IMG/VR virus record: IMGVR_UViG_3300024999_000207
Coordinates: 1 to 41,104 of that record
Length of the DNA: 41,104 nucleotides
Origin: a virus
Strand: one strand, 5' to 3'
Shown here one piece after another: positions 493-33,036 of this stretch. Position numbers and translations under genes: made by a program. The first letter of the stretch is position 1, and each line of letters starts with the position of its first letter. The notes under the pieces were generated by a model, which was not told where the DNA came from, did not search any database, and worked only from the letters and a program-made list of their open reading frames with translations.

Positions 493-1878
493 ATGGGATT
501 ATTAACTAAAGAAGTTGAAGTTGGATTAAGTGGGGAAAATATAAAATGGTTTGAAAATTTAGGTTATATTATTCCTAGAGAAATAGATAAATGTGGAAGA
601 AATTGTGTTAAAAAGGGTACAACAATAATAGTAAACGTTGGAGATTTAAAAAGTAATAGTAATGCAATGGTAGAAGTTCAATGTGATAATAGCAGTTGTA
701 ATAAAATACTGAAAAAAATGCAATTAAATACTTATAATAAATATATTAAAGACGGTGTGTATTATTGTAAAACCTGTGCTTTAGAATTATATGGTTATAA
801 AAACTCGATGCAAACTAAATTAATTAACAGTATATCTTTTAAACAATGGTGTTTAGATAATAATCGACAGGATGTATTAGACAGATGGGATTATGTGTTA
901 AATAATTGTTTACCTAATGAAATTAGTTACAGTTCAAATAAAAAATATTACTTTCAATGTCCTAGGGGAATACATAAAAGTGAGTTAAAAAATATAAGTA
1001 ATTTTACAAAAAGAAATAGTATAATAACTTGTAACCAATGTAACTCTTTTGCTCAATGGGGTATTGATAATATTTGTAAAGATTTTCTTGAAAAATATTG
1101 GGATTATGATAAAAATATTCTAGATCCTTGGGAAATTAGCTATGCTAATAGTAGTAGTAAAGTATATATTATTTGCCAAGAAAAAGATTATCATGAGAAT
1201 TATCTAATTGCATGTGCTAGTTTTTCTGTGCAAAGAAGCAGATGTCCATATTGTACTAGTAAAAAAATACATAAGTTAGATAGTCTTGGAACATTATATC
1301 CTAAAGCATTAGCATTATGGTCTGATAAAAATAAAAAGTCTCCTTACGAATATACTACACATACTCACCAACAAGTTTATTGGAAATGCGAAAATGGAAA
1401 ACACAAGGATTATTTAAGAGGTGTAGACGGTTCTAATAGATATAATTTTCGTTGCCCTGAATGTGATTTTTCAAAAGGAGAAGAAAGAATAAGCAATAAT
1501 TTAATAAATAGTGATTGGATTCAAATTTCTCAAGAGGAATTTGATAAGATAATAAATAAATATAATAATAAATATTTCATTCCACAAAAAGAGTTTGAAG
1601 GACTTGTCGGTTTAGGTGGAGGTTTATTATCATACGATTTTTATTTGCCTAAATATAATTTATTAATTGAATATCAAGGCGAATACCATGATGGAACTGT
1701 GAAAAATCAAACTAAAGAAGACTTTGAGAAACAAGTCGAGCATGATAGACGCAAGAAGGAATACACTCAACAAAATGGATATAATTTTCTTGAAATATGG
1801 TATAAAGACTTTGATAACATAGAATCAATCTTAGCAAAAGAACTAAATGTTATCAAGGACTTTAATATAAGTATCTAA
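493..1878 (+). CDS. Free-standing homing endonuclease, zinc-finger array + PD-(D/E)XK nuclease (intact)
   Basis: Probable site-specific homing endonuclease of 461 residues. The N-terminal ~95 residues form a module shared with two other genes here, ending in CxxC-type pairs (about 64-69 and 92-95). Three further zinc-ribbon-like repeats follow, each with a WKC/FQC-type Cys and a CxxC, resembling the DUF4379 zinc-ribbon family of phage endonucleases. The C-terminal ~130 residues are nuclease: KGEERI, then YDFYLP (Asp382), then EYQGEYHD (Glu393), the PD-(D/E)XK/Vsr-like arrangement of EDxHD-type homing endonucleases. The start has GGAAGGAG about 8 bases upstream. It sits between structural genes behind a terminator hairpin, so it is an intergenic insertion. 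Family placement is established knowledge; homing activity is inferred. Confidence 0.8.
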   Translation: MGLLTKEVEVGLSGENIKWFENLGYIIPREIDKCGRNCVKKGTTIIVNVGDLKSNSNAMVEVQCDNSSCNKILKKMQLNTYNKYIKDGVYYCKTCALELYGYKNSMQTKLINSISFKQWCLDNNRQDVLDRWDYVLNNCLPNEISYSSNKKYYFQCPRGIHKSELKNISNFTKRNSIITCNQCNSFAQWGIDNICKDFLEKYWDYDKNILDPWEISYANSSSKVYIICQEKDYHENYLIACASFSVQRSRCPYCTSKKIHKLDSLGTLYPKALALWSDKNKKSPYEYTTHTHQQVYWKCENGKHKDYLRGVDGSNRYNFRCPECDFSKGEERISNNLINSDWIQISQEEFDKIINKYNNKYFIPQKEFEGLVGLGGGLLSYDFYLPKYNLLIEYQGEYHDGTVKNQTKEDFEKQVEHDRRKKEYTQQNGYNFLEIWYKDFDNIESILAKELNVIKDFNISI

Positions 1879-3611: not shown

Positions 3612-4729
3612 ATGGGATTAATAACTAAAGAAGTTGAGGTTATTCTACATCCTACAATTATTGAATATTATGAAGGCAAGGGATACAAAATTGTAAGAAG
3701 AAATGATAAAAGGGGTAGATTAAAGGTTATACGAGGTTCTAAAATATTAGTAAAAGTTGATGATTTAAGTAAAGGTAGTCATGTCAAAGTTGACGCTGAA
3801 TGTGATAATTGCGGAAAGATTAAAGATATTCCATGGAAAGACTTTAATAAAATATCAAAAGAAGATGGAAAATATTATTGCCAAAACTGTGCATTAAAAT
3901 TATATGGTACGGAAAATCGAAGAAAATCCAGATTAAATAATAGCATATCTTTTGAACAATGGTGTATAGAAAATGAACGTCAAGACTTATTGGACAGGTG
4001 GGATTATGATTTAAATGAGTATAGTCCGAATGAAATAAGTTATGGTTCAAATATAAAACAATGGTTAAAATGTCCAAAAGGAATACATAATAGCGAATTG
4101 AAAAAATTAACTAATTTAGTTTTTGGGCAAGAAGGAAGTATACAGTGTAATAAATGCAATTCGTTAGGCTATAAGTATCCTAATGTTTTTAATTTTTGGT
4201 CTGACAAAAATGAAAAAACGCCCTATGATTATTCTTTTTGTAGCGGAAAAAGAGTGTGGTGGAAATGCCCCAATGGTAAACACAATGATTTCAAAAGAAT
4301 AATTTCAGGCTCAACGATTCTCGATTTTCATTGTCCGGAATGTAATTATTCAAAAGGCGAAGAAAGAATTAATGAAAAATTAATTGCTGAAAGTTTTACA
4401 AAAATTTTAGAAGATGAGTATAACGAAATAATTATTTTAGATAATCAAGTCTACTATATCCCACAAAAAACTTTTGAAGGGCTTGTAGGGTTAGGAAATG
4501 GTCTTTTGTCTTATGATTTCTATATTCTTAAATATAACTAGTAGAATATCAAGGGCAATATCATGATGGTACTGCAGGAAATCAAACCGAAGAAGAATAT
4601 AAAATTCAACAGGAACATGACAAAAGAAAGAAAGAATATGCTTTACAAAACGGATATAATTTTCTAGAGATTTGGTATTGGGATTTTGATAACATTGAAG
4701 AAATATTAGACGAATATTTATCTTTTTAA
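3612..4729 (+). pseudogene. Homing endonuclease pseudogene (paralogue of 493-1878), frameshifted at the active site
   Basis: The first 309 residues match the endonuclease at 493-1878: the MGLITKEVEV start, the shared N-terminal module, CxxC zinc-ribbon repeats (one fewer than the paralogue) and nuclease motif YDFY. The frame ends at a TAG at 4539-4541. Translation resumes in a shifted frame at 4544 with EYQGQYHD and runs to a TAA at 4727-4729, matching the C-terminus of the intact copy. Aligned to that copy, four bases are missing just before the EYQG codons, so the catalytic Glu and all that follows are lost. The gene is therefore inactive as read, unless programmed recoding occurs. Its Shine-Dalgarno sequence (GGAAGGAG) is intact, which suggests recent decay or a sequencing error. 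Confidence 0.85.
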
Positions 4730-4765
4730 AGGATGTGGTGCTATTAACAAAAGGAAGTGATATTT

Positions 4766-5290
4766 ATGTCTCTTAGCTTAAAATTTAAACATATGGGGAA
4801 AAATATTGTAAAAATATTAATTCCTATAATATCTAATCAAAATTTTCTTCGGTATGTATATTACTTAACTGATGAACCATTGTTGCATCAAACATATGAC
4901 ACACAAGGAAATTTGATAAATCAACCCGATATTCAAGATAACCCCATAGGTACTTCTTTGCTTTTAACCCCATTCGATCCAACAGTTTTAACAAATTCTG
5001 TTGTGAAAGTATTCATATATCCATTACGAGGTAATTTATCAGATCCTATAAGTAATGATGTTTATGAAATTATTATTCTTTGTGATATATCTCATTATAT
5101 TCTCAATGGGTCAGGGGAGCTTCGTTTATTTATGATTGCTTACGAGATATGTCAATCTATTGATAATCAATATATTGCAGGAGCAGGAAGTTCTGTTAAA
5201 ATAACAGATTGGCGAATGTTTAAAGTTAATGATACATATGCAGGATTATCAGTATGGGCAAATGTTAGTAATGGGACATTAAGAGGTTGA
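4766..5290 (+). CDS. Phage structural protein, possibly neck or tail completion
   Basis: A 174-residue protein. ATG 4766 is preferred over GTG 4757 because AAGGAAG at 4751-4757 then has a normal spacing. It is an alpha/beta protein with IYPLRG, EIIILCDISHYIL and WRMFKVNDTYAGLSVWANV and no catalytic motif. Position before the chaperone-like and tail-tube-like genes suggests a neck or tail-completion protein. It overlaps the next gene's ribosome site (stop at 5288-5290, next ATG at 5296), so the two are translationally linked. The specific role is inference. Confidence 0.5.
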   Translation: MSLSLKFKHMGKNIVKILIPIISNQNFLRYVYYLTDEPLLHQTYDTQGNLINQPDIQDNPIGTSLLLTPFDPTVLTNSVVKVFIYPLRGNLSDPISNDVYEIIILCDISHYILNGSGELRLFMIAYEICQSIDNQYIAGAGSSVKITDWRMFKVNDTYAGLSVWANVSNGTLRG

Positions 5291-5295
5291 ATATT

Positions 5296-5991
5296 ATGGA
5301 AGAATTATTTATATTTGGAGAATATCTTGAATTAGAGACACCAATTGGAATATGCCATTTCGTTAAAACAAAAGATTACCCAAAATTAATGCAATATATT
5401 TCCACAATGCATCTTGATAAAGCAGATATAATACCATTGATTGATCAGGAATTCAAATCATATTTTGAAGAAGCAAGTTTTATTGAAATTATAAATTATT
5501 TCAAAGAAGATAATTTTAATTTATTACAAGCATTTACAGATTTGTTTAATTTCATATTCTATGAAGATGTTTTCCATAAAATAAAAACAGATCAAGAATT
5601 AACTTATTACTTAGATTTGATAAAAAAAATGAATCATATTGAATATCATAAACCAAATCCTAATCCTGAAATTGAGTATTATAACAAGTTAGAAAGAATG
5701 ATGCAGGAACAAAAAGGTGAAGTATTGACGCTAAAAGCCATGATAACTAGTGCATGGTTATACACTAATCCTTTTGAATTGACGATATATCAACTATATG
5801 CTTTATTTGATAGAATTTCAAATTTTAAAACTTTTGATATGACTACACTGTTTGCAAGCCATGGTAGTGGGTCAGATATTAATTCTTGGTATAAAGACGT
5901 TGATTTAAGTAAAAAGAATAAAACAGCATTGAGTGAAGAAGATAAAAGTTTTGCAAATAGTCATATGACAATGATTCCTAGCAAGAAATAA
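5296..5991 (+). CDS. Unknown phage protein, possible tail assembly chaperone
   Basis: A 231-residue helical, acidic cytoplasmic-type protein. ATG 5296 fits the AAGAGG site at 5281-5286 better than the TTG at 5287. It contains a W-Y-NPFELTIYQLYALFDRI motif near residues 150-170, a pattern common in phage proteins from neck/tail modules that bind other virion proteins. There is no membrane segment. It sits six bases after the preceding gene and 17 before the probable tail protein, in one operon. The function is not recognised with certainty. Confidence 0.5.
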   Translation: MEELFIFGEYLELETPIGICHFVKTKDYPKLMQYISTMHLDKADIIPLIDQEFKSYFEEASFIEIINYFKEDNFNLLQAFTDLFNFIFYEDVFHKIKTDQELTYYLDLIKKMNHIEYHKPNPNPEIEYYNKLERMMQEQKGEVLTLKAMITSAWLYTNPFELTIYQLYALFDRISNFKTFDMTTLFASHGSGSDINSWYKDVDLSKKNKTALSEEDKSFANSHMTMIPSKK

Positions 5992-6834: not shown

Positions 6835-6882
6835 TGTTTAATTTTAGAGAGAAAATATAACATTTTAGAGAGGATGTTGGTA

Positions 6883-8304
6883 ATGCTTATAAATAGTACA
6901 ACTTTAGTAAAATGGAATGGTCATAATTTAAGATATTATATTTCAAAGGGATACAATTATACAAAAACAGGAGAATATTTTGAAGTTAAAGTAGAGGATT
7001 TGCTTTACAATAGCCGATCAGAAGTTAATGTAGAATGTGATTATTGTGGTAAAAATTTTAATCTGCAATATACATCTTATACGAATCAAATGGAGTCACA
7101 TGTCCAGAAAATAGCTTGTGATGATTGTAAAACATTAAAAGTAAAAGAAGTAAACAAAATAAAGAAAACAAATAAAAAACCAGAAACAATTAAAAACACC
7201 AACATCATAATCACAGAAGAAAAATTGATTAATGATATTTCTAATCTAATAGAAAAATATGGTAGATTCCCTACAATGTCAGAAATTTATAATGAATTAT
7301 ATATTACAGATGGAGTAATTGCATCATTTGGAGGAATGACTCGTCTTCGTGAATTGCTTAATTATAAAGACGATACTGAACTAGTGGATGATCGAGGTTA
7401 TTTAAATTCTTCTACTTATGAATATATGACAGCACAATTTCTGATTAAATATGATAAACAATACAAGAGAGAGCAACATCCTTTTATTCAAGAAGAAGGA
7501 AATCATAGAAGTGATTTTACTTTTTACACTATTAATGGAGAAGAAATTCATTGCGAGGTATGGGGTTATGATTTAACAAGAACAGATTCCAGGATAAATA
7601 ATAGATATAGAGATCATAGAGAAAATAAGCAAAGATTATATGATAAGTATAATATAAATCTAATATCTATTGAGTGTGAAATATTTAATAATACATATGA
7701 TAATATCCAAAAGGAACTATATAATATATTTAAACCATATTTGGAATTATAATTCAAAGATGTAAGTTGCGATTATATAATTCCACCTACAAAAATATCT
7801 GATGAAGAGTTATTTAAAAGAACTATGGAATTATCTAAAGACGGTATAACTATGCCATTACCAAAAGATTTAAGAACTAATCACAGTGGATTATATAGAC
7901 AAATATGGCTACGATTTGGAGCATGGCGTAATTTTGCAGAGCGTTTTGACAAGGGAAAAGAAATAAGAGGTAGGGGTTATTGGACGGAAGATAATTTATT
8001 TAATACATTTATCTATGTATTAAATAAATATAATAAAGTTTTGAATGGTGATGAATTACAATTTTATTCAAAAGACGATATTGTTTTAAAAGGTTATTAT
8101 GGTGCAATCAAGAAAAATGGTAAATATATTGATTATACATTAAAATTTGCAGATAAATATATTACGAGTGACATGCCATTTAATAGTGGTTTAAATACAT
8201 ATTTAATTAATATAAAGAATAAAAGAAATAAGAATGTAACATTAATACAACAGGAATATGCAAAAGAAATATTAAAAACATCTAGTAATTTATCAGCAAA
8301 ATAA
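6883..8304 (+). pseudogene. Homing endonuclease split by an in-frame TAA
   Basis: One reading frame of about 473 codons is interrupted only by a TAA at 7750-7752. The same frame continues without another stop to 8304. The first part (289 residues from ATG 6883) has the N-terminal module shared with the other endonucleases, a CDYCGK...CDDCK zinc finger, an HEAR-type repeat (EEKLINDISNLIEKYGRFPTM...FGGMTRL) and a PD-(D/E)XK core (REQHPF, RSDFTF, HCEVWGYD). The second part contains two more HEAR-like helical repeats (LRFGAWRNFAERF) likely used for DNA binding. ATG 6883 is preferred to 6874, which touches the GAGAGG site. Either a nonsense mutation removed the C-terminal DNA-binding part, or the stop is read through. 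The nuclease half could still be made. Confidence 0.7.
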
Positions 8305-13006: not shown

Positions 13007-13430
13007 TAAAATATTAATTACAATAGATAATTCTACATTGGAAAAATATAATAAATACTATTTTAATCTACATCCAAAACGAAGGAAAGAACCAATAGAA
13101 TCTCCTCATCATCCCTCTATTAATAAATGGATGATTATGAAACGTCCTCAAATGAATGGTTTAAAACAAACATGGAAGGATTTCATAATCTGGTTAATTG
13201 AAGATTATGGCTATAGCAATATAAATATAGAATCATGTGCTATGACATTTACATATTACTTTAAAACCAAAGCGAGGCATGATACAGATAATCTGTCTCC
13301 TAAATTCATTTTAGATGGTTTATCAGAAGGATTTATAGTTGACGATGATTATAAACATTTGCATACTCTTACTTTAAAATGCGGATATGATAAGGAAAAT
13401 CCAAGGACAGAAATATTGGTAGAATATTGA
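13002..13430 (+). CDS. rusA: RusA-family Holliday junction resolvase
   Basis: A dimeric endonuclease that would resolve four-way junctions during phage recombination or replication. Family motifs: PSINKW...R..MN.LK..W.DFI near the N-terminus, and the acidic cluster ARHDTDNLSPKFILDGL followed by IVDDD, supplying the metal-binding Asp residues and a Lys. PRTEILVEY closes the fold. The first TTG (13038) has no ribosome site. AAAGGAG at 12986-12992 points instead to the in-frame ATT at 13002, giving an N-terminus NKILITIDNS; a rare AUU start is therefore likely (142 residues versus 130). The stop overlaps the ATG of the GIY-YIG gene (TGATG). Confidence 0.75.
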   Translation: MNKILITIDNSTLEKYNKYYFNLHPKRRKEPIESPHHPSINKWMIMKRPQMNGLKQTWKDFIIWLIEDYGYSNINIESCAMTFTYYFKTKARHDTDNLSPKFILDGLSEGFIVDDDYKHLHTLTLKCGYDKENPRTEILVEY

Positions 13431-14320
13431 TGGAAAATAATAATTATACAGTTTATATGCACATTAATAAAATTAATTCAAAAAAGTATATAGGAATAAC
13501 AAAACAAAAACCAGAAAAAAGATGGAGTCACGGTAATCATTATAAAAGCAGTCCTCATTTTTATAGTTCTATTAAGAAATATAGATGGGATAACTTTGAA
13601 CATTTGATACTTTTTGAAAATTTAAATGAAGAAGATGCAAAGAATATGGAAAAACAACTTATATTTGAATTTAATACTTTAGATAATTATTATGGTTATA
13701 ATCAAACTGAAGGTGGAGAGGGATGTAATGGTTATAAACATACTGAAAAAACAAAAAATAAAATGAGTGAGATTGCTAAACAAAGAATCGTATCAGAAGA
13801 AACAAAAGAAAAGATGAGAAATATAATGACTGGTAGGGAATTTACAGATGAATGGAAACAAAAAATTAGCGAAAGTCATATAGGAGATAAAAATCCTTCT
13901 GCTAAACCAGTAGTTCAATTAAACGGTAATTTTGAGTTAATTAAAGAGTTTTCTTGTGGTAGATATGCTGAACAAGAATTGGGTATTAATGTTACTCATA
14001 TATCTGCGGTATGCCTAGAGAAAGAGAGAAGTGCAGGTGGTTATATATTTATGTTTAAAGATAATTATGAAATCAAAAAAGATAGTTTAAAAGATAAATG
14101 TATAGTCGTTAGACCTCAGAAAAGAAAAGTTGTTCAATTATCATTAAATGACGAATATATAAATATGTTTAATTCTATTGTAGATGCTTCAAATGAGTTA
14201 CATATAGATCCAAGCTCCATAGGGAATGTTTGTAAAGGTAAAAAGCAGAAAACCTGTGGTGGATTTAAATGGATGTATGAAGAAGACTACGAAAAACAAC
14301 AAGAGAATACAGCAAGTTAA
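13430..14320 (+). CDS. GIY-YIG homing endonuclease with NUMOD3 and NUMOD1 repeats
   Basis: A seg/I-TevI-type free-standing homing endonuclease of about 296 residues. The N-terminal catalytic domain has YTVYMHINKINSKKYIGIT (the GIY-YIG tandem in the form VYM...YIG), a downstream Arg (KRWSHG) and the Glu of EKQLI. Residues ~105-160 carry NUMOD3 DNA-binding motifs (HTEKTKNKMSE, SEETKEKMR, DEWKQKISESHIGDKNP). Two NUMOD1-type helix-turn-helix repeats follow (KPVVQLNGNFELIKEF...GGYIFMF and RKVVQLSLNDEYINMF...GGFKWMY). ATG 13430 overlaps the RusA stop. It is probably a mobile intruder between rusA and the recombinase. Intact. Confidence 0.9.
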   Translation: MENNNYTVYMHINKINSKKYIGITKQKPEKRWSHGNHYKSSPHFYSSIKKYRWDNFEHLILFENLNEEDAKNMEKQLIFEFNTLDNYYGYNQTEGGEGCNGYKHTEKTKNKMSEIAKQRIVSEETKEKMRNIMTGREFTDEWKQKISESHIGDKNPSAKPVVQLNGNFELIKEFSCGRYAEQELGINVTHISAVCLEKERSAGGYIFMFKDNYEIKKDSLKDKCIVVRPQKRKVVQLSLNDEYINMFNSIVDASNELHIDPSSIGNVCKGKKQKTCGGFKWMYEEDYEKQQENTAS

Positions 14321-14351
14321 TTTAAAAGTAAACTATAAAGGAAGTGAATTA

Positions 14352-15413
14352 ATGTCAGAACGTGGAAGAGTATATAATCCAATTTACACTAAAGAAGAAT
14401 GGTTAATAATTAATCCAAAGAACAAAGAAGTGATGAATGATTTTCTAGAAGAATATAGACAAAGAAAAAAGAAGAAAGGAACCATTGATGCATATTTCCA
14501 AGATTTAAGGATCATTATGATTTATATAAATAGATTTTGTGGTAATAAATGTATTCTTGATTTAGGAAAGAAGGATTTTAGAAGGTTAAGTATATGGTTA
14601 AGTGATGATTTAAAAGTATCTAATGCAAGAGCAAATAGATTAATGAGTTCCACTAGGTCTATGCTTTCGTACTGCGAGGAAGATGACGAGACAGAATATG
14701 AAAATAATGTATCCAGAAAGGTGAAAGGTCTTCCCTCAGAGCCAGTAAAAACTGATGAAGATAACTTTTTTATGACTTTTGATCAAATCTGGAGAATTAG
14801 AGGAGAATTGCTAAAACGTGGCAAATTACAGCTTGCTGTTTTACATATGCTTTTGTTTGATTCTGGGGGTCGTAGGAATGAGGTTTATCAAATCAAGAAG
14901 CAAGATGTTCAGGAAGGAAATAAAACAAATATCGTTGTTGGTAAAAGAGGAAAAACATTTCCATTAGTATATTTAAATGATACTAGAGAATTAGCTAGGA
15001 AACTTATTATTGAACGTGGTGAAGATAATTTGGATGCTTTGTGGATTACTGGAACTGGAGAAAATAAAAAAGAAGTAACTTATGGTGCTATATATGATAG
15101 AGTTGTTGCTATTTCTGTAATATTTAGTGAATTAGAAGGAAGAGAAATCCATATATTTCCACATTCCTACAGACACAGTAGATGCGAGTGTTTATTAGAG
15201 GGGCAAGATCCACGTATTATTGATCCTAAAACTGGATTACCAAAAAAATTCTCATTAGAAGAAGTTCAGCTTTTTCTTCACCATTCTGATCCTAAAACAA
15301 CACAGGGATATCGAAAGGATCATAGTGAGGAAATGATTGATGGTATGTTTAATTTTGATGGAGAAGTAGAAGATGTAACTAATAAAGAAATAATTTCAAA
15401 AGATAATAAATAA
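14352..15413 (+). CDS. Tyrosine recombinase / phage integrase family
   Basis: A 353-residue site-specific recombinase. ATG 14352 has AAAGGAAGTG upstream; the longer frame from 14226 overlaps the GIY-YIG gene and is not needed. Residues ~35-120 form a SAM-like core-binding domain. The catalytic domain shows the Arg box (SGGRRNEVYQI), the beta-hairpin Lys (VGKRGKTF), HSYRH (HxxR), the His of LHHSDP and the nucleophilic Tyr in TTQGYRKD. All five to six catalytic residues are present, so it should be active. An inverted repeat at 15677-15741 downstream could be a recombination site. It may integrate the phage or resolve genome multimers. Confidence 0.9.
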   Translation: MSERGRVYNPIYTKEEWLIINPKNKEVMNDFLEEYRQRKKKKGTIDAYFQDLRIIMIYINRFCGNKCILDLGKKDFRRLSIWLSDDLKVSNARANRLMSSTRSMLSYCEEDDETEYENNVSRKVKGLPSEPVKTDEDNFFMTFDQIWRIRGELLKRGKLQLAVLHMLLFDSGGRRNEVYQIKKQDVQEGNKTNIVVGKRGKTFPLVYLNDTRELARKLIIERGEDNLDALWITGTGENKKEVTYGAIYDRVVAISVIFSELEGREIHIFPHSYRHSRCECLLEGQDPRIIDPKTGLPKKFSLEEVQLFLHHSDPKTTQGYRKDHSEEMIDGMFNFDGEVEDVTNKEIISKDNK

Positions 15414-25596: not shown

Positions 25597-27744
25597 TTGG
25601 ATGATTTAAATATTCTAATTAAAGCAAAGTTAGCATCAACAGTCTCTACAGATATAAATACACAAATTAATGAATTAAACACAAGTAAAAAAATAACAAG
25701 TGCAATTTCTGTAAAGTTAAATATTGATGCTAAAGATTTAACCATTATTAATGACACTATGGAAAAAATAAAAAAGGCAACATCGCAATCTGGTGGTAAG
25801 ATTACTATATTTAATGAGAAAGACCTAAAAGATCAAGGAATTAAATATAAACAAGGAGTAATGAGAACGATTGAAGATGTTGAAAAATATCTTCAAGGTG
25901 CTTATAATGGTAAAAAATTTGATTTAGGACCAATTTCAACAAACGCAAGTAAAGATATAAAATCATTTGAAGCCACTATTAAATCAACTAATGGACAACT
26001 TGAAAAAGTTAAGTTTAATTTAGCAGAAATAGCTAGGGAAAGTGCTAAAACCGGAAAGGTTAGTACAAACTCTGGGTATGTTTTAGATAGTTCTCAACTT
26101 TCAAGAATTGCAGTAAAACCAGAACAGATATTTGATAGAGCAAAGTTAGATGAAGAAGGTAGAAAATTCTTTTTTAATTCAAAAAATGTAATTGACAGAG
26201 TTAAAGCAGAGTTTTCTACGCTTGGTCAAGTAAATGTTTTTGAAACATTGAATAGCAAATCAAAATTAACGTCTTTTATTGCCGAAATTACTAAAGCTAA
26301 TGGAGTTGTTGAAAAACTTCAATTTAATATGGCAAAAATACAAACTGGAAGCAGTACGCAATCTGGATTTATTTTTATAGGTGAAAAAATAGTTGATAAA
26401 AATGCAGGGGCAAATTTAGATACGCTAAAAAATAAAATGCAGTCCTTTACAAACCAATTAGAAAGAATGAAGACTGGATTTACATCTCCTGCCACAGGAA
26501 TTACTGATCCGCAAAATTTAAATAATTTAATTGCTAAGTACGATCAAGTTAAGGCAACAATTAATCAAGTTCTACAAAGTAGCACAAATCTTTCCAGTGA
26601 ACAACGTAGAGGTATAGTTCAAAATTTAGCTGATTTGAGATTGCAGATAACTGAATATAAAGATTTACAACGCGCAATGGCAAAAAGCAACGGTTCTGAT
26701 AGTAAACAGGGAAATTGGACACCTGTATTGACAGATTTAAGTAGATTATCCAATGTAAAAACAACTATTGTTGATGGTCAAGAAGTTCAAAGAATCGCTA
26801 CTATTCATAATGAGTTGAATCAAACATTGACTGTTACTCAGCGTTTAAATGAAACTACTAAAAAGTGGGAAGAAAGCACTAGAGTAATTGGAAAATTAAA
26901 TGAAGATAATACGGTAAAACTTCAGAGACAATTAGAATTAGCACAAAAGAACTTTACTAATCGTGGAAATAATATAGAATCTCAATATGTAGGATCTTAT
27001 GATGTTTCTAAACTTGAAGATTTGCGTAGACAAGCTTCTAATCTTGTGATTAATCCTAATCTTTCACATCAAATATCTATTCTTCGAGAATCATTTGCAC
27101 AATTAGGAATTGAAGCGAGAAAAGCTTTTAATGTTACGACAAGTGGACAAGGGAATATGGAAAAAACATTAGATAAGCTTCAATTATACGAAAATAAAAT
27201 TGCAAAATTGAAGACCGGATTTACTTCCCCTGCCACTGGAATAAAAGACCCTGAAAATCTAGCTATTTTAATTGCTCAACATGATAGACTTAAAGTAGGT
27301 ATAGATCAAATAAGATCAAGTAATACATTTTTATCTAACGAACAAAGAAGAGGAATACTTCAAAATATAGCTAATTTGGAATTAGAAATTACCAAGTATA
27401 AAGATTTACAAAGAATAGCAACAACAGCAGATGCTAAAACTTTAAGTCCCAAGGATATTAGTTTATATCAAGCAGAGATGCAAAATAAAATTAATAGTTT
27501 ACAAGTTGGCAAAAGCACTGTTTTTTCTCAACCAGCAATACAGCAAGAATTGACTCGCTTAACAGAAAATATTGTAAGATTTGGTACTGCTGGGAGTTTG
27601 TCTGCTAGAGAAGTAAATTTACAATTTGCTCAATTGACTACATCTGTAAGAGCCGCAACTGCTGAAATTACAAGAATAAATGGTGCTGCGGATAGTGTAT
27701 TTACAACTTTCGGAAAAGATATATTTAAACTCGGAATTTGGAGT
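25597..27744 (+). CDS. Tape-measure protein, exon 1
   Basis: The N-terminal 716 residues of the TMP that sets tail length. The start is TTG 25597 with GAGAGG 10 bases upstream. The product is helical and Lys/Gln/Asn-rich. It contains two 80-residue copies (around 26455-26690 and 27180-27420) of LKTGFTSPATGI-DP-NL...SNEQRRGI-QN-A-L-EITKYKDLQR, and a second looser repeat earlier, so internal duplication has lengthened the protein. The frame reads through the predicted splice site and stops at 27766-27768. Exon 1 ends with ...FGKDIFKLGIWS at 27744 by the P1 pairing of the group I intron. Confidence 0.8.
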
Positions 27745-28239
27745 AATTTGTATATATTTGTCGAATAGATAATAAAATTTATATAAGTATTCGATAAACG
27801 TTAAGCTCCGCATATAGTGCAAACTGTATGTAGTGATAGATGACGTATAACAATCTATCCAATATCTCAACAATTGCTGGTAATCGCTAAGAGCTAACTA
27901 AACTACAACGTAGGTATGAAATATGGCCAAGCGTGAATGTTACGAAAGTAGAAAGAATTAGTTAGATGGCATAAGGTTAAATCCTAAGTGCTATAAACAA
28001 TGGGTCTTCAGCAGGATATATCCGAATAGGATACTCTTCAACGACCATTCCCTATGAGGGAAGTAGGGCCAAGTGGTGGGAGAAATCCCTTAAATCGAAA
28101 CGAGAGACTTTCTTATAATATGATTTATGAGAAATGATGATATGGTCTGGGCATGTATGGAAAACATACAGAAGTTCATTTTAAATAATATAATATATTA
28201 TATTATATTATATTATATTATTTAATTGAGAACTGGCAG
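27745..28239 (+). ncRNA. Group I self-splicing intron (IA-like) in the tape-measure gene
   Basis: The internal guide GCTCCG (27805-27810) pairs with exon end TGGAGT (27739-27744), putting the required U-G wobble at the 5' site. Between them is a long hairpin (TGTCGAATA with TATTCGATA). P4 is TGCTG (27875-27879) with CAGCA (28009-28013). P7 is GACCA (28043-28047) with TGGTC (28143-28147). A TTCCC-TATGA-GGGAA hairpin (P7.1) and GGGA-GAAA-TCCC (P8) lie between them, as in subgroup IA. P9 is TGTATG-GAAAA-CATACA, then a long AT-rich stem closed by AGTTC/GAACT. The 3' end is placed at G28239; G28236 also keeps frame. No ORF is inside. Confidence 0.88.
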
Positions 28240-31200
28240 AAATTAACGAATTCTGTCGAACACTACCGTTTAGCCGCAACATTAATGTACGCGCCATTTA
28301 GAGCCTTGAAGGATGGCATCCAATTCGTCTACCAGATGGATACAGCTCTTACAGATTTGTCGAAAGTTGTCGATTTTTCGTCTAATCAATTAAATGAAAT
28401 GGCAGATGCTTCTATTAATCTTGGAAAACAACTTGGTAAATCTAGCGTCGAAATTATGCAAGGAATGGCGGAATTTGGAAGAATTACTAAGGATCAAAAT
28501 GAGATAATCGAGTTGACTCGTGTTGCGACAATGGCATCGAACGTCACCACAATGACATCGGCAGAGGCAGCTAAGGCAATTACGACAAGTATGATTACAT
28601 TTGGTATAGAAGCAAAAGATTCTATGAAAATATTAAATTCCCTTAATGAAGTACAAAATAATTTTAGAATTTCAGCAGAAGACATGGTAGCATCAATTTC
28701 CAAGATCGGGGCGGCGAGCAGATTAGCCAACACAGATATGGAAGATTTAGAGGGTATGACTACAGCAATTGTACAATCTTTGGGAATTTCTGGAAATGAA
28801 GCTGGAACAGCCATAAAATCTTTTATGAGTCGTATATATAGGACGGATGAATCTAATCCTGACGAATTAGGTAAAACAGCAAAAGTATTAAAAGAAATTA
28901 TGAATATTGATACAACAGATGCAAATGATAACTTAAAAAGCTTTAATTCCCTTATTTCTGAGATTAAAAGTGGATGGAGTGAAATGTCAAAACAAGAGCA
29001 GTTGGCAGTTTCGCAAAGTATGGGTTCGACTTATCATTATTCGAAATTTATCGCCTTAATGGAGGCATACCAGATAAAACTAGATGCTGCTACCATGGCT
29101 AGGAACAGTGAAAACAGTGCTTTGGAAGAAAACGCTAAAAAACTTGACTCAATTTCGGGTCGTCTAGGATTGCTGAAAGTCGCATCGGAAGAATTTTGGG
29201 CATCAATAATAAATTCTAGTTCTCTAAAAACAATGGTATCATCTTTAACTTATTTGGTTTCTACTTTTGCTAATTTATCTACCATTTTAGTATTGATTGC
29301 ATCAGGATTTGCGATATTTAAAGGTACTGCTATAATTAAGTTTTTTAGCACGGCATCTTTTTCTGCGATGTTATTAAAATCAAGTTTAGTCCAAACTCAA
29401 ATGGCATTGATAAATTTATCGGAAGCTGAAATTTTAGCGACCACCACTACTGAAAGATTAATATTTGCTATGAAAGGATTGGGGGTTGCCATAAAAGCCA
29501 ATCCAATTGGCTTGATTATTACCAGCATATTTGCGGTTGTAATGGCAATGGATATATATAATCAAAAGCAAGAAGAAGCCGCACAGAAACAAAAAGAATC
29601 TATTGATATATATAAATCCCAACAAAATGAAATATCCTCTTTAATTGAAACATATCGTCAAAATGCAGAATTGGCCAAGACTGATGATAATGCAAAAAAA
29701 CAACTGATTGAAACTGAGAAAAAATTAAAAGATGTTTTTGGAGAAACTGCCCAAAGTCTTGATTTACAAAGTGGGTCAATTGATGATAATATTGCAAAAC
29801 TCGAAAAATTAGACTTAGCTAATCAAACAGCATTTAGAGATAAGCAAAAGGCATTTGCAGAAGATGCTAAAAATTCTTTAAATACTCCCAATCAGTACTC
29901 TGCTGGAGGACTTGCAGAACAAGATTTTTATGGCACACCAGAAGCTGCTCTTGAATATTATGAAAATCTTCGAAATGAGATTAATAAAAATTTACATAAG
30001 GCAACATCATTTGGTGGCGAAAATTCTACCGATACTATTGAAGAATCTAAACAAATAAGTGCGATGATTGATACTTTAAGCGAAAAAGTTAAAGTTTATA
30101 AAACTTCAATTCTTACGCTTGATGACGCTTATAAGATGGTAGCGCAGAGTTCTATAGAAGGTCTTGATAAATTATCTGAGAAACAAAAAACGGTTTTCGA
30201 TAATATAAAAGGCAAATTAACGTTTACTAATGAAGATCAATATAAGAAGAATTTATTAGAAGTTATGGATATTTTGTCAAAATTTGATGGCAAAAATATT
30301 GATGAAACGAATAGCAAATTACATAAGATTGATGCGTCTCTTCCTCCAATTTCAGATAACGCTAACAAATCTAAAAATACTGTGGATTCTTTCACAAAAT
30401 CCCTTACCACTCTCCAAGAAACCCTATCATCATCTGCATCATCTATCTCAGAAATACAATCAGCACTAACAGAATATAATGATGCAGGATCGTTTTCTCT
30501 GGATACACTTATAAAGCTTGCCGATAAACTAGAATCTCTTCTTCCAATTCTTGGTGATGAAAAAGCAGTCCATCAAGAATTAACAAACATAATCCAACAA
30601 GAGCAAGAAAAGTCAGAACAAGCGTATATAACTATGATAAACGGTTCAACTGACTTCTATAATGCTAACATTGAAGGAATTAAAAATCTTGTTGAAGGTT
30701 TAGGATTACAACGTGATGAAGATTTAAAAGGAGCAAAAGATTTAGCGTCTGCTAAATTGCTAGTTGAATTAGCATTAATCAAAAAACTAGCTACTTTGTG
30801 GTCAAGTTATTATGATACAAACACTGGTGCTTTTACAGGAGAAGTAGAACAAATCGGAAGTAGACAAGTTGTTACTGGTGGAAGCAACCATGAATCAACT
30901 TATGTTAGTGATGAAATGACTACTCAAATGTCAGCACTTGCTAGAGCAGAAAGAATTGCGAAAGAAAAATTTGACAATATTGTATTAGATAATTCAGGTA
31001 TTGATTTCTCTAAAATTGGTATGTCTGGAAGTAAATCCTCATCCAAAGATTCATCCAAAGACTCATCATCCGACTCATCCCAATCCCTCCAAATCGAAGA
31101 CCTCACTCAAGCTCTCATCACCCAAATAAATGCAGAACACTTACTCCAAAAAGCCAAATCAGACTCAATACAAAAAGACCTATCTCAAGCACAATCTCAA

Positions 31201-33036
31201 AAAGACTACCAAAAAACTCTATCCCTAACAAACTCTCTAATCTCCAGTCAAGCAGAAGAATTATCTCTTCTAAACTCTGCACATGATTCCATTAATTCCC
31301 TATCAGATTCCAACCTTCAATCATCATCATCATCTCAATTTGGTGATATCAATAAATGGTTTACTGGTTCAGATAATCAAGAATCAGTTGCATATGTAAA
31401 AGCCCATAATGAAGCATCAGAAGAAACTCGTAAAATAATGGATGAATTATTTAAATCTCAACAATTGGTAAGAAATGCTTGGGTTGCAAATTCAATTGCA
31501 ATTAAAGATAATATTGATGCTCAAAAAACTCTAAAAAATTCTCTAATCCAAATTGAAATTGATAAATTCGAACAATCTATGGCAAAATTAGATGCAAAAA
31601 TGAATCTGTCTAAATCAATAATGGATTTATATGATAAATCATCTGAAGAATATTCTAAAGAACAAGCAAGACAAGTCACTTTATTAAAAGAAAAAGAAGA
31701 TGCAATTTTTAATGAAATTGTTGCTATTGGTCATTTATTAAAAGCAACAGATTTAACTACAGAAGCTCAAAAAACTTTAAATGATGAAATGGCAAATCTA
31801 AAACTCACACTTAATCAAAATCAAAAATCCATGCAAGATTATGCTAATGATATAGTTCAAATTCTAAAAGATGCCGCAAAAATACGAAAAACAATTGATT
31901 TAGCAGTAATAGATGTGGAAATGAGATCCGAAGATAGAAGACATCAACAAGTTTTAGATGATATTGACAGCGAAGAAAAGGCCAGAGAAGATTCTATTAA
32001 TAAACAAATTTCTGCTATTGATCGTCTTGCAAATGCTGAAAATTATACAAAGGATTTAAATTCTGCTCAAACTGATGCTCAAACTCTTCAAAGTCAAATT
32101 GATGCGTTATCTCTTGATACATCGAACGAAGGAAAATCTAGAACAGCAGAATTACAAAAACAACTATTAGAAAAGCAATCATCTATTGATGATATGCAAA
32201 ATTCTCATGCTACTGATCTTCGTAAACAAAATTTGCAAGATGCTTTAGATGCTATTAAAAAAGAATCTGAGGCAAAGAAAAAATCCGAAAATGAAGCATA
32301 TGAGGCAAAAAAGCAATCTTTAGAGGATCAAAAAACTGCAACAGAAACCGCTTTTAATGAACTAATGTTAAATGATGAAATTTGGTCAGCAAAGGTTCAA
32401 GAAATTCTTGATGGGAATATTACGGGTATTCAAGACAGTCTTAATACTTTTGCTGATGAATTTACTACTACATTAACAACTCAAGCTGGCAAAATTGATA
32501 CTAGTTTTCAAGCAATAATCAATACGATAAAACAGATAAAATCTGCTGCTAATGAACTTGACGCATTTCCTAATTATGCATCTGGAACATCCTTCCACAA
32601 AGGAGGACTCGCAAAGACTTCTGAAGAGGGCAGAGAATTAATAATTCCTCCCAATAGTAAACCATTTCTTAGTGGAAATAATGGCCCTGAAATCATGAAT
32701 CTAGAAAAAGGAACTGAAGTTATTCCTCATAATTTAACGGAATCTATCCTTGCTAAATCAAAACTTTTAAATATTCCATCTTATGCCAATGGAATTGGAA
32801 TTACGAGTTCGATTATGGATTTAATAAAAAATATCCAACTTCCATCATTTAATCTTCCACAATTCCAAACACCACAATTTGCCAATAATTCTTCATCTGG
32901 AACAAATGTAACAATTCCAAACATTAATTTTAACGTCACGTCTACAGACGGGATAATCAGTAAAAAGAATTTGGAAATAGCATCCAATTATGTAATTAGA
33001 CAAATTGAGAGAGCACAGATTATTAGAGGAAGATAA
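28240..33036 (+). CDS. Tape-measure protein, exon 2
   Basis: About 1,598 residues that continue exon 1 in frame: after the junction LTNSVEHYRLAATLMYAPFRALKDG leads into the classic TMP core (DTALTDLSKVVDFSS, LGKQLGKSSVEIMQGMAEFGRITKD, ATMASNVTTMTSAEAAKAITTSMITF, DLEGMTTAIVQSLGISGNEAGTAIKSFMSR). Two hydrophobic segments at about 29225-29560 follow, then long coiled coils, a Ser/Asp-rich linker and the C-terminal FHKGGLAKTSEEGRELIIP motif of TMPs. Spliced length is about 2,314 residues, implying a tail of roughly 340 nm at 1.5 angstrom per residue. The ATG at 28285 has no ribosome site, so exon 2 is not an independent gene. A C-rich, G-poor patch lies at 31035-31330. Confidence 0.88.
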   Translation, partial: KLTNSVEHYRLAATLMYAPFRALKDGIQFVYQMDTALTDLSKVVDFSSNQLNEMADASINLGKQLGKSSVEIMQGMAEFGRITKDQNEIIELTRVATMASNVTTMTSAEAAKAITTSMITFGIEAKDSMKILNSLNEVQNNFRISAEDMVASISKIGAASRLANTDMEDLEGMTTAIVQSLGISGNEAGTAIKSFMSRIYRTDESNPDELGKTAKVLKEIMNIDTTDANDNLKSFNSLISEIKSGWSEMSKQEQLAVSQSMGSTYHYSKFIALMEAYQIKLDAATMARNSENSALEENAKKLDSISGRLGLLKVASEEFWASIINSSSLKTMVSSLTYLVSTFANLSTILVLIASGFAIFKGTAIIKFFSTASFSAMLLKSSLVQTQMALINLSEAEILATTTTERLIFAMKGLGVAIKANPIGLIITSIFAVVMAMDIYNQKQEEAAQKQKESIDIYKSQQNEISSLIETYRQNAELAKTDDNAKKQLIETEKKLKDVFGETAQSLDLQSGSIDDNIAKLEKLDLANQTAFRDKQKAFAEDAKNSLNTPNQYSAGGLAEQDFYGTPEAALEYYENLRNEINKNLHKATSFGGENSTDTIEESKQISAMIDTLSEKVKVYKTSILTLDDAYKMVAQSSIEGLDKLSEKQKTVFDNIKGKLTFTNEDQYKKNLLEVMDILSKFDGKNIDETNSKLHKIDASLPPISDNANKSKNTVDSFTKSLTTLQETLSSSASSISEIQSALTEYNDAGSFSLDTLIKLADKLESLLPILGDEKAVHQELTNIIQQEQEKSEQAYITMINGSTDFYNANIEGIKNLVEGLGLQRDEDLKGAKDLASAKLLVELALIKKLATLWSSYYDTNTGAFTGEVEQIGSRQVVTGGSNHESTYVSDEMTTQMSALARAERIAKEKFDNIVLDNSGIDFSKIGMSGSKSSSKDSSKDSSSDSSQSLQIEDLTQALITQINAEHLLQKAKSDSIQKDLSQAQSQKDYQKTLSLTNSLISSQAEELSLLNSAHDSINSLSDSNLQSSSSSQFGDINKWFTGSDNQESVAYVKAHNEASEETRKIMDELFKSQQLVRNAWVANSIAIKDNIDAQKTLKNSLIQIEIDKFEQSMAKLDAKMNLSKSIMDLYDKSSEEYSKEQARQVTLLKEKEDAIFNEIVAIGHLLKATDLTTEAQKTLNDEMANLKLTLNQNQKSMQDYANDIVQILKDAAKIRKTIDLAVIDVEMRSEDRRHQQVLDDIDSEEKAREDSINKQISAIDRLANAENYTKDLNSAQTDAQTLQSQIDALSLDTSNEGKSRTAELQKQLLEKQSSIDDMQNSHATDLRKQNLQDALDAIKKESEAKKKSENEAYEAKKQSLEDQKTATETAFNELMLNDEIWSAKVQEILDGNITGIQDSLNTFADEFTTTLTTQAGKIDTSFQAIINTIKQIKSAANELDAFPNYASGTSFHKGGLAKTSEEGRELIIPPNSKPFLSGNNGPEIMNLEKGTEVIPHNLTESILAKSKLLNIPSYANGIGITSSIMDLIKNIQLPSFNLPQFQTPQFANNSSSGTNVTIPNINFNVTSTDGIISKKNLEIASNYVIRQIERAQIIRGR

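Follow-up and report, generated by a model that had tools for sequence, protein, structure and literature searches.

In the ordinary group I pathway a guanosine attacks the 5' junction and the freed 5' exon then attacks after omega-G. The last base of the 5' exon is virtually, if not strictly, always a U paired with G, and omega-G is the near-universal last base of the intron. Group B IStrons are known to carry a one-base shift at the 5' site: RT-PCR of BcISt1 proved splicing after G, with the U belonging to the intron (Tourasse 2014, PMC4227781). The same paper names IStrons of C. botulinum phage c-st. Introns free of an IS and close to group B IStrons are already known from Turicibacter (PMC4227781), and phage ICP1 offers a precedent for introns that are spliced out of a tape-measure gene, as RNA-seq and RT-PCR demonstrated (PMC10448857).

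We analyzed a 41,104-nt stretch of virus DNA (IMG/VR record IMGVR_UViG_3300024999_000207; the window), whose tape-measure (TMP) gene consists of two ORFs (25597-27768 and 28285-33036). Profile searches match exon 2 to tape-measure family phrog_4211 (E 7e-116) and to Pfam PhageMin_Tail (PF10145). Both exons are open across 7 kb, the gap between them contains stops in all frames, and the gene is interrupted by a group I intron. Judged from sequence, positions 27744-28268 are with high probability an ORF-less group IA2 intron of 525 nt, a transposon-free sister of TnpB IStrons that is a passenger in a phage tape-measure gene. A separate protein in the phage structural region (17488-19218) joins Big_2 Ig-like domains to leucine-rich repeats.

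RF00028 matches 28046-28171 at 24.7 bits (E 4.8e-4). The Infernal check suggested in the preliminary description thus gave a match, but one short of the gathering score of 50, which is a detection threshold and no biological feature; an Rfam search of the window at that threshold returned no match. The model scores 70 on a relative of the intron in the tail-tube gene of Alicyclobacillus phage KKP_3916 (L014). A blastn search matched parts of the P2-P6 core to IStrons on plasmids and to IA2-type introns in 185 phage records, most of them from staphylococcal phages. The fold beats 100 of 100 shuffles (z -4.3).

Comparison among relatives establishes the fold. When six related introns are set into a group IA2 fold of 15 helices, 97.8% of cells are paired, and the P3-P9 core carries P7.1/P7.2 and P9.0-P9.2 as in group IA2. 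Compensatory changes occur at 25 of 78 pairs (n = 6 sequences), where shuffles average 8.3 and sliding gives 1-3; P5 accounts for five and P6 for two, and P4 is invariant. The U27744-G27805 wobble sits one base inside the intron and is UG in five sequences and CG in one. A near-perfect AU-rich palindrome with TATAT repeats lies at 28181-28225 inside P9.1; it is absent in L095 (a virus contig considered below) and L014, and its length differs among the relatives that have it. The preliminary description had recognized a group I intron in the TMP gene, which RF00028, blastn, the stop-rich gap, phrog_4211, the fold against shuffles and the compensatory pairs all support, and relatives with and without the intron lend good support to its reading as an ORF-less intron in this gene. 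The P1 with U-G wobble, P4, P7, P7.1 and P9 drawn there reappear in the six-sequence fold; the P8 with a GAAA loop does not, as that hairpin (28078-28089) is an add-on to P7.2 common only to the window and L006, and P8 lies elsewhere (Table 1).

Table 1. Coordinates in the window of the tape-measure exons, the predicted intron and its helices. Slashes mark cuts in junction sequences and separate the two strands of a helix.
Feature	Position	Strand	Details
Tape-measure exon 1	25597-27743	+	TTG start, end ...TGG AG; shares the frame of exon 2; homologs are the N-terminal TMP parts in L003-L006
Group IA2 intron, no ORF	27744-28268	+	First nt U27744, last nt omega-G G28268; from junction test and covariation
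P1 5' strand GGAG/U	27740-27744	+	Pairs with 27805-27809 (GCUCC); GGAG/CUCC pairing invariant in 6 sequences
P1 extension hairpin	27757-27798	+	27757-27767/27788-27798; stem re-forms with other sequence in L005 and L006; from an alignment inspected by eye
Internal guide sequence GCUCC	27805-27809	+	Pairs with P1 5' strand
P2 and P2.1	27811-27859	+	27811-27817/27824-27830; 27835-27841/27853-27859; 4 + 4 compensatory pairs
P3	27862-28143	+	27862-27869/28135-28143; 93% of cells paired
P4, P5, P6	27875-28013	+	27875-27880/28008-28013; 27894-27900/27959-27965; 27968-27971/27989-27992
P7, G-binding site region	28043-28147	+	28043-28046/28144-28147; all paired, 1 compensatory pair
P7.1, P7.2, extra GAAA hairpin	28048-28089	+	28048-28052/28058-28062; 28068-28070/28075-28077; 28078-28089
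P8	28110-28133	+	From sequence pairing; CCUUA/UAAGG in L005 and L045
P9.0 5' strand GG	28150-28151	+	Pairs with CC 28266-28267 directly before omega-G
P9, GAAA-type loop	28154-28170	+	From covariation alignment
P9.1	28173-28234	+	28173-28177/28230-28234, invariant; AU-rich hairpin of variable length between
P9.2 hairpin	28237-28255	+	28237-28241/28251-28255; 4 of 5 pairs with compensatory change; includes G28239
Tape-measure exon 2	28269-33036	+	Start U UUA GCC; phrog_4211, PF10145

Close tape-measure genes were found in four virus contigs, L003, L004, L005 and L006; a second, alignment-based scan returned the same four, and no TMP relatives were found in bacterial genomes. The alignment with intronless homologues that the preliminary description had called for is provided by L003 and L004, whose genes read through the site uninterrupted (KLGLWSAAATIFYLP, KLGLWAGAATAFYAP). 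In L005 and L006 a homologous intron (446 and 511 nt) occupies precisely this TMP site, and RF00028 matches both of them and neither L003 nor L004. A scan of genome_contigs with the guide sequence gave 118 stretches, none recognized as this intron type among the loci examined.

The flanking exons suggest how the intron arrived. In the last 120 nt upstream of the intron 21 of 27 informative sites are like those of the intron-bearing L006, as are 19 of 22 over the initial 60 nt of exon 2; between 120 and 600 nt downstream the window is mostly like the intronless L003, and further upstream it is mixed. This recombination tract argues that the intron probably moved between phages together with flanking exon, and it is compatible with transfer with or without a homing endonuclease. 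No endonuclease partner can be named for it, because intronless relatives, too, have endonuclease-like genes close to their tape-measure gene. Five homing-endonuclease-like genes are present in the window (493-1878, 3612-4541, 6874-7752, 13427-14320 and 22586-23743), of the HNH or DUF4379 type plus one GIY-YIG with NUMOD motifs, and one such gene lies ~1.9 kb upstream of the tape-measure gene. At 13427-15413 the GIY-YIG ORF and an integrase ORF read in a different frame share 95 bases.

Two further relatives, in L045 and L095, share with the tape-measure introns the guide AAGCTCCGCATATAG and the after-G site. Behind P9.2 of L045 lies a TnpB-type gene (Pfam OrfB_IS605 and Cas12f1-like_TNB), the L095 ORF in that place is similar by eye to the TnpB type, and both contain RAGATH-18 RNA, a TnpB guide RNA; with these parts behind P9.2, L045 and L095 are IStrons. 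In a tree of 18 intron cores, built from sequences other than the published group B IStrons, the three tape-measure introns and L045 and L095 form one clade with support 99/99. Where these IStrons have the whole transposon half, the tape-measure introns have only TACCG, TCCG or ACCG. In L045 a TnpB IStron of 1,897 nt (3770-5666) sits in a phage gene (MANVNNVVTGRYG...) of which related samples contain 27 intronless alleles. In L095 (3400-6790; virus contig 3300017917_002918) the tape-measure gene appears to be disrupted by three short insertions of a different kind; all of them end near GTAACAGAAT, and RF00028 matches none. The third holds a complete TnpB IStron with RAGATH-18 and looks like an intron inside an intron.

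Comparison likewise establishes the boundaries. Among the related introns conservation continues beyond G28239. For the genes of the window, L005 and L006 we combined every 3' cut behind a G in this region with each of the two 5' cuts. GGAG/U...CCG/ is the sole junction valid for every one of these genes, and the resulting proteins (KLGIWSLAATLMYAP, KLGLWSAAATVFYAP, KLGIWSLAATLMYAP) equal the intronless proteins in length. At the first pair of P9.0 the three TMP introns have G-C, whereas the CAG-ending introns of L045, L095 and L014 have U-A. Together the junction test and this covariation place the intron at 27744-28268, with G28268, backed by P9.0, as omega-G. Since G28268 is the last intron base, the 5' cut would follow G27743 and the U of the U-G pair would be the first base of the intron; with this 3' end only the cut after G27743 keeps the frame. 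The intron does have the U-G pair, yet its 5' cut is placed one base upstream of the canonical position behind the U. The spliced gene is predicted to encode an uninterrupted protein of 2,304 residues with the junction ...GGA AUU UGG AG/U UUA GCC..., and these are the boundaries needed to assemble the tape-measure protein in annotation.

The sister introns follow the same rule. The L045 junction reads ACTGGGAG/TAAT...GCATCAG/ATACGGT and 27 intronless loci read ACT GGT AGA TAT GGT or close variants, an empty-site comparison that, as far as sequence can tell, fixes unambiguously the cut after G and the intron end at CAG. L014 reads GGAG/C...TTCAG/CTAACC, and when spliced gives GGQGANRLLTWDYG versus GGKGAPRLVGWDYG in the intronless Brevibacillus phage Sundance. 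In the window and L006, the G/U...G/U and U/...U/ cuts yield identical spliced sequence; what locates the 5' cut chemically in the window is therefore omega-G, together with P9.0 and the evidence of the sister elements. Cuts after U27744 and U28269 would thus give the same mRNA here and in L006 and would retain the canonical U-G at the 5' cut. They would also break the near-universal omega-G rule, end the L005 intron in C, and fit the L045 junction only by a frameshift. With BcISt1 RT-PCR assigning the U to the intron as well (PMC4227781), we consider such cuts very unlikely.

We infer, for the intron cut after G27743, the following course of splicing. Free guanosine held in P7 would attack the 5' junction presented by P1 (GGAG with CUCC), a single base ahead of the U-G wobble, the position also cut in group B IStrons; the freed 5' exon would then attack after omega-G28268, and ligation would restore the 2,304-residue tape-measure protein. 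Between phages the intron would spread through recombination or through homing by other elements.

That the intron has decayed and no longer splices, leaving the tape-measure gene broken in this contig, is highly unlikely: its low Rfam score, its lack of an ORF and its extra AU-rich hairpin would suit such a remnant, whereas every core helix is preserved, compensatory changes are seen in them, and both exons have stayed open over their 7 kb. The preliminary description had proposed a candidate regulatory intron, whose splicing efficiency would control tail assembly. Tape-measure function would presumably require splicing, but the intron is missing from two close relatives, its length and sequence vary and no conserved switch element is seen, which makes regulation extremely improbable. 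Absence in related phages, a length range of 446-525 nt and the horizontal-transfer tract fit a mobile passenger without sign of regulation. The boundaries first proposed, with a 5' site after U27744 regarded as firm (off by 1 nt) and a 3' site at G28239 (29 nt short of G28268) or G28236, have next to no probability left: they put the canonical U-G at the cut and join the TMP halves in frame in the window, but G28239 is a poor splice-site candidate because it pairs with C28253 in the covarying P9.2 (U-A in L095), the equivalent cuts leave no open frame in L006 and a wrong frame in L005, and ten residues would be added that intronless relatives do not have.

The complementarity of CGTTAA beside the guide to TTAACG, read there as P10, looks like chance: the guide side is CGTGAA in L005 and CGTAAA in L006, L045 and L095, and TTAACG forms the loop of P9.2, which four of the six introns retain. 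If P10 instead joined UUUAGC of exon 2 to GUUAAG of the guide (27800-27805), the window would fit, but L005 and L006 would make only about four of the six pairs, and we do not propose this pairing. Among the related introns there is no clear conservation of P10.

The phage contigs, several of the same metagenome, form a natural set of intronless, intron-only and intron-plus-TnpB states. In this set the atypical 5' splice site known from group B IStrons occurs with no transposon attached, and the cause of the one-base shift is thereby testable on a short ribozyme.

Among known systems, the tape-measure introns of the Vibrio phage ICP1, likened by description and not by sequence, likewise split the gene and are removed by splicing to rejoin the exons, but they number three and include an HNH endonuclease gene (PMC10448857). 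The staphylococcal phage IA2 introns of the Twort type match the P3-P6 core in sequence and share the same general helices, yet the tree does not place them in the clade that unites TMP introns with TnpB IStrons. The IA2 intron of Turicibacter, also likened by description, is an IS-free relative of group B with a G-ending site (GGAGG) and a non-IStron 3' end (PMC4227781). Closest are the group B IStrons themselves, BcISt1 of Bacillus cereus and CsISt1 of Clostridium sporogenes (PMC4227781): like them, the window intron is of the IA2 type with P7.1, P7.2 and P9.0-P9.2, follows a 5' exon ending in G, begins with a U that pairs with the guide G, has an internal loop after the U-G pair, and carries the GAACAC motif after P9.2; in the tree it groups with the TnpB IStrons L045 and L095. 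Unlike them, it sits in a phage tape-measure gene, it has neither an IS component with a TnpB or serine recombinase ORF nor an AU-rich IR stem after P9.2, only TACCG follows GAACAC, and all three TMP introns end in CCG rather than in CGG or, as CsISt1 does, in CAG. We regard as evenly balanced the proposal that the tape-measure introns are group B IStrons minus the transposon half, splicing-only passengers moved by recombination together with flanking exon (or, in reverse, the intron stock that gave rise to TnpB IStrons). If it is true, the after-G cut rule would belong to the ribozyme and not to the transposon.
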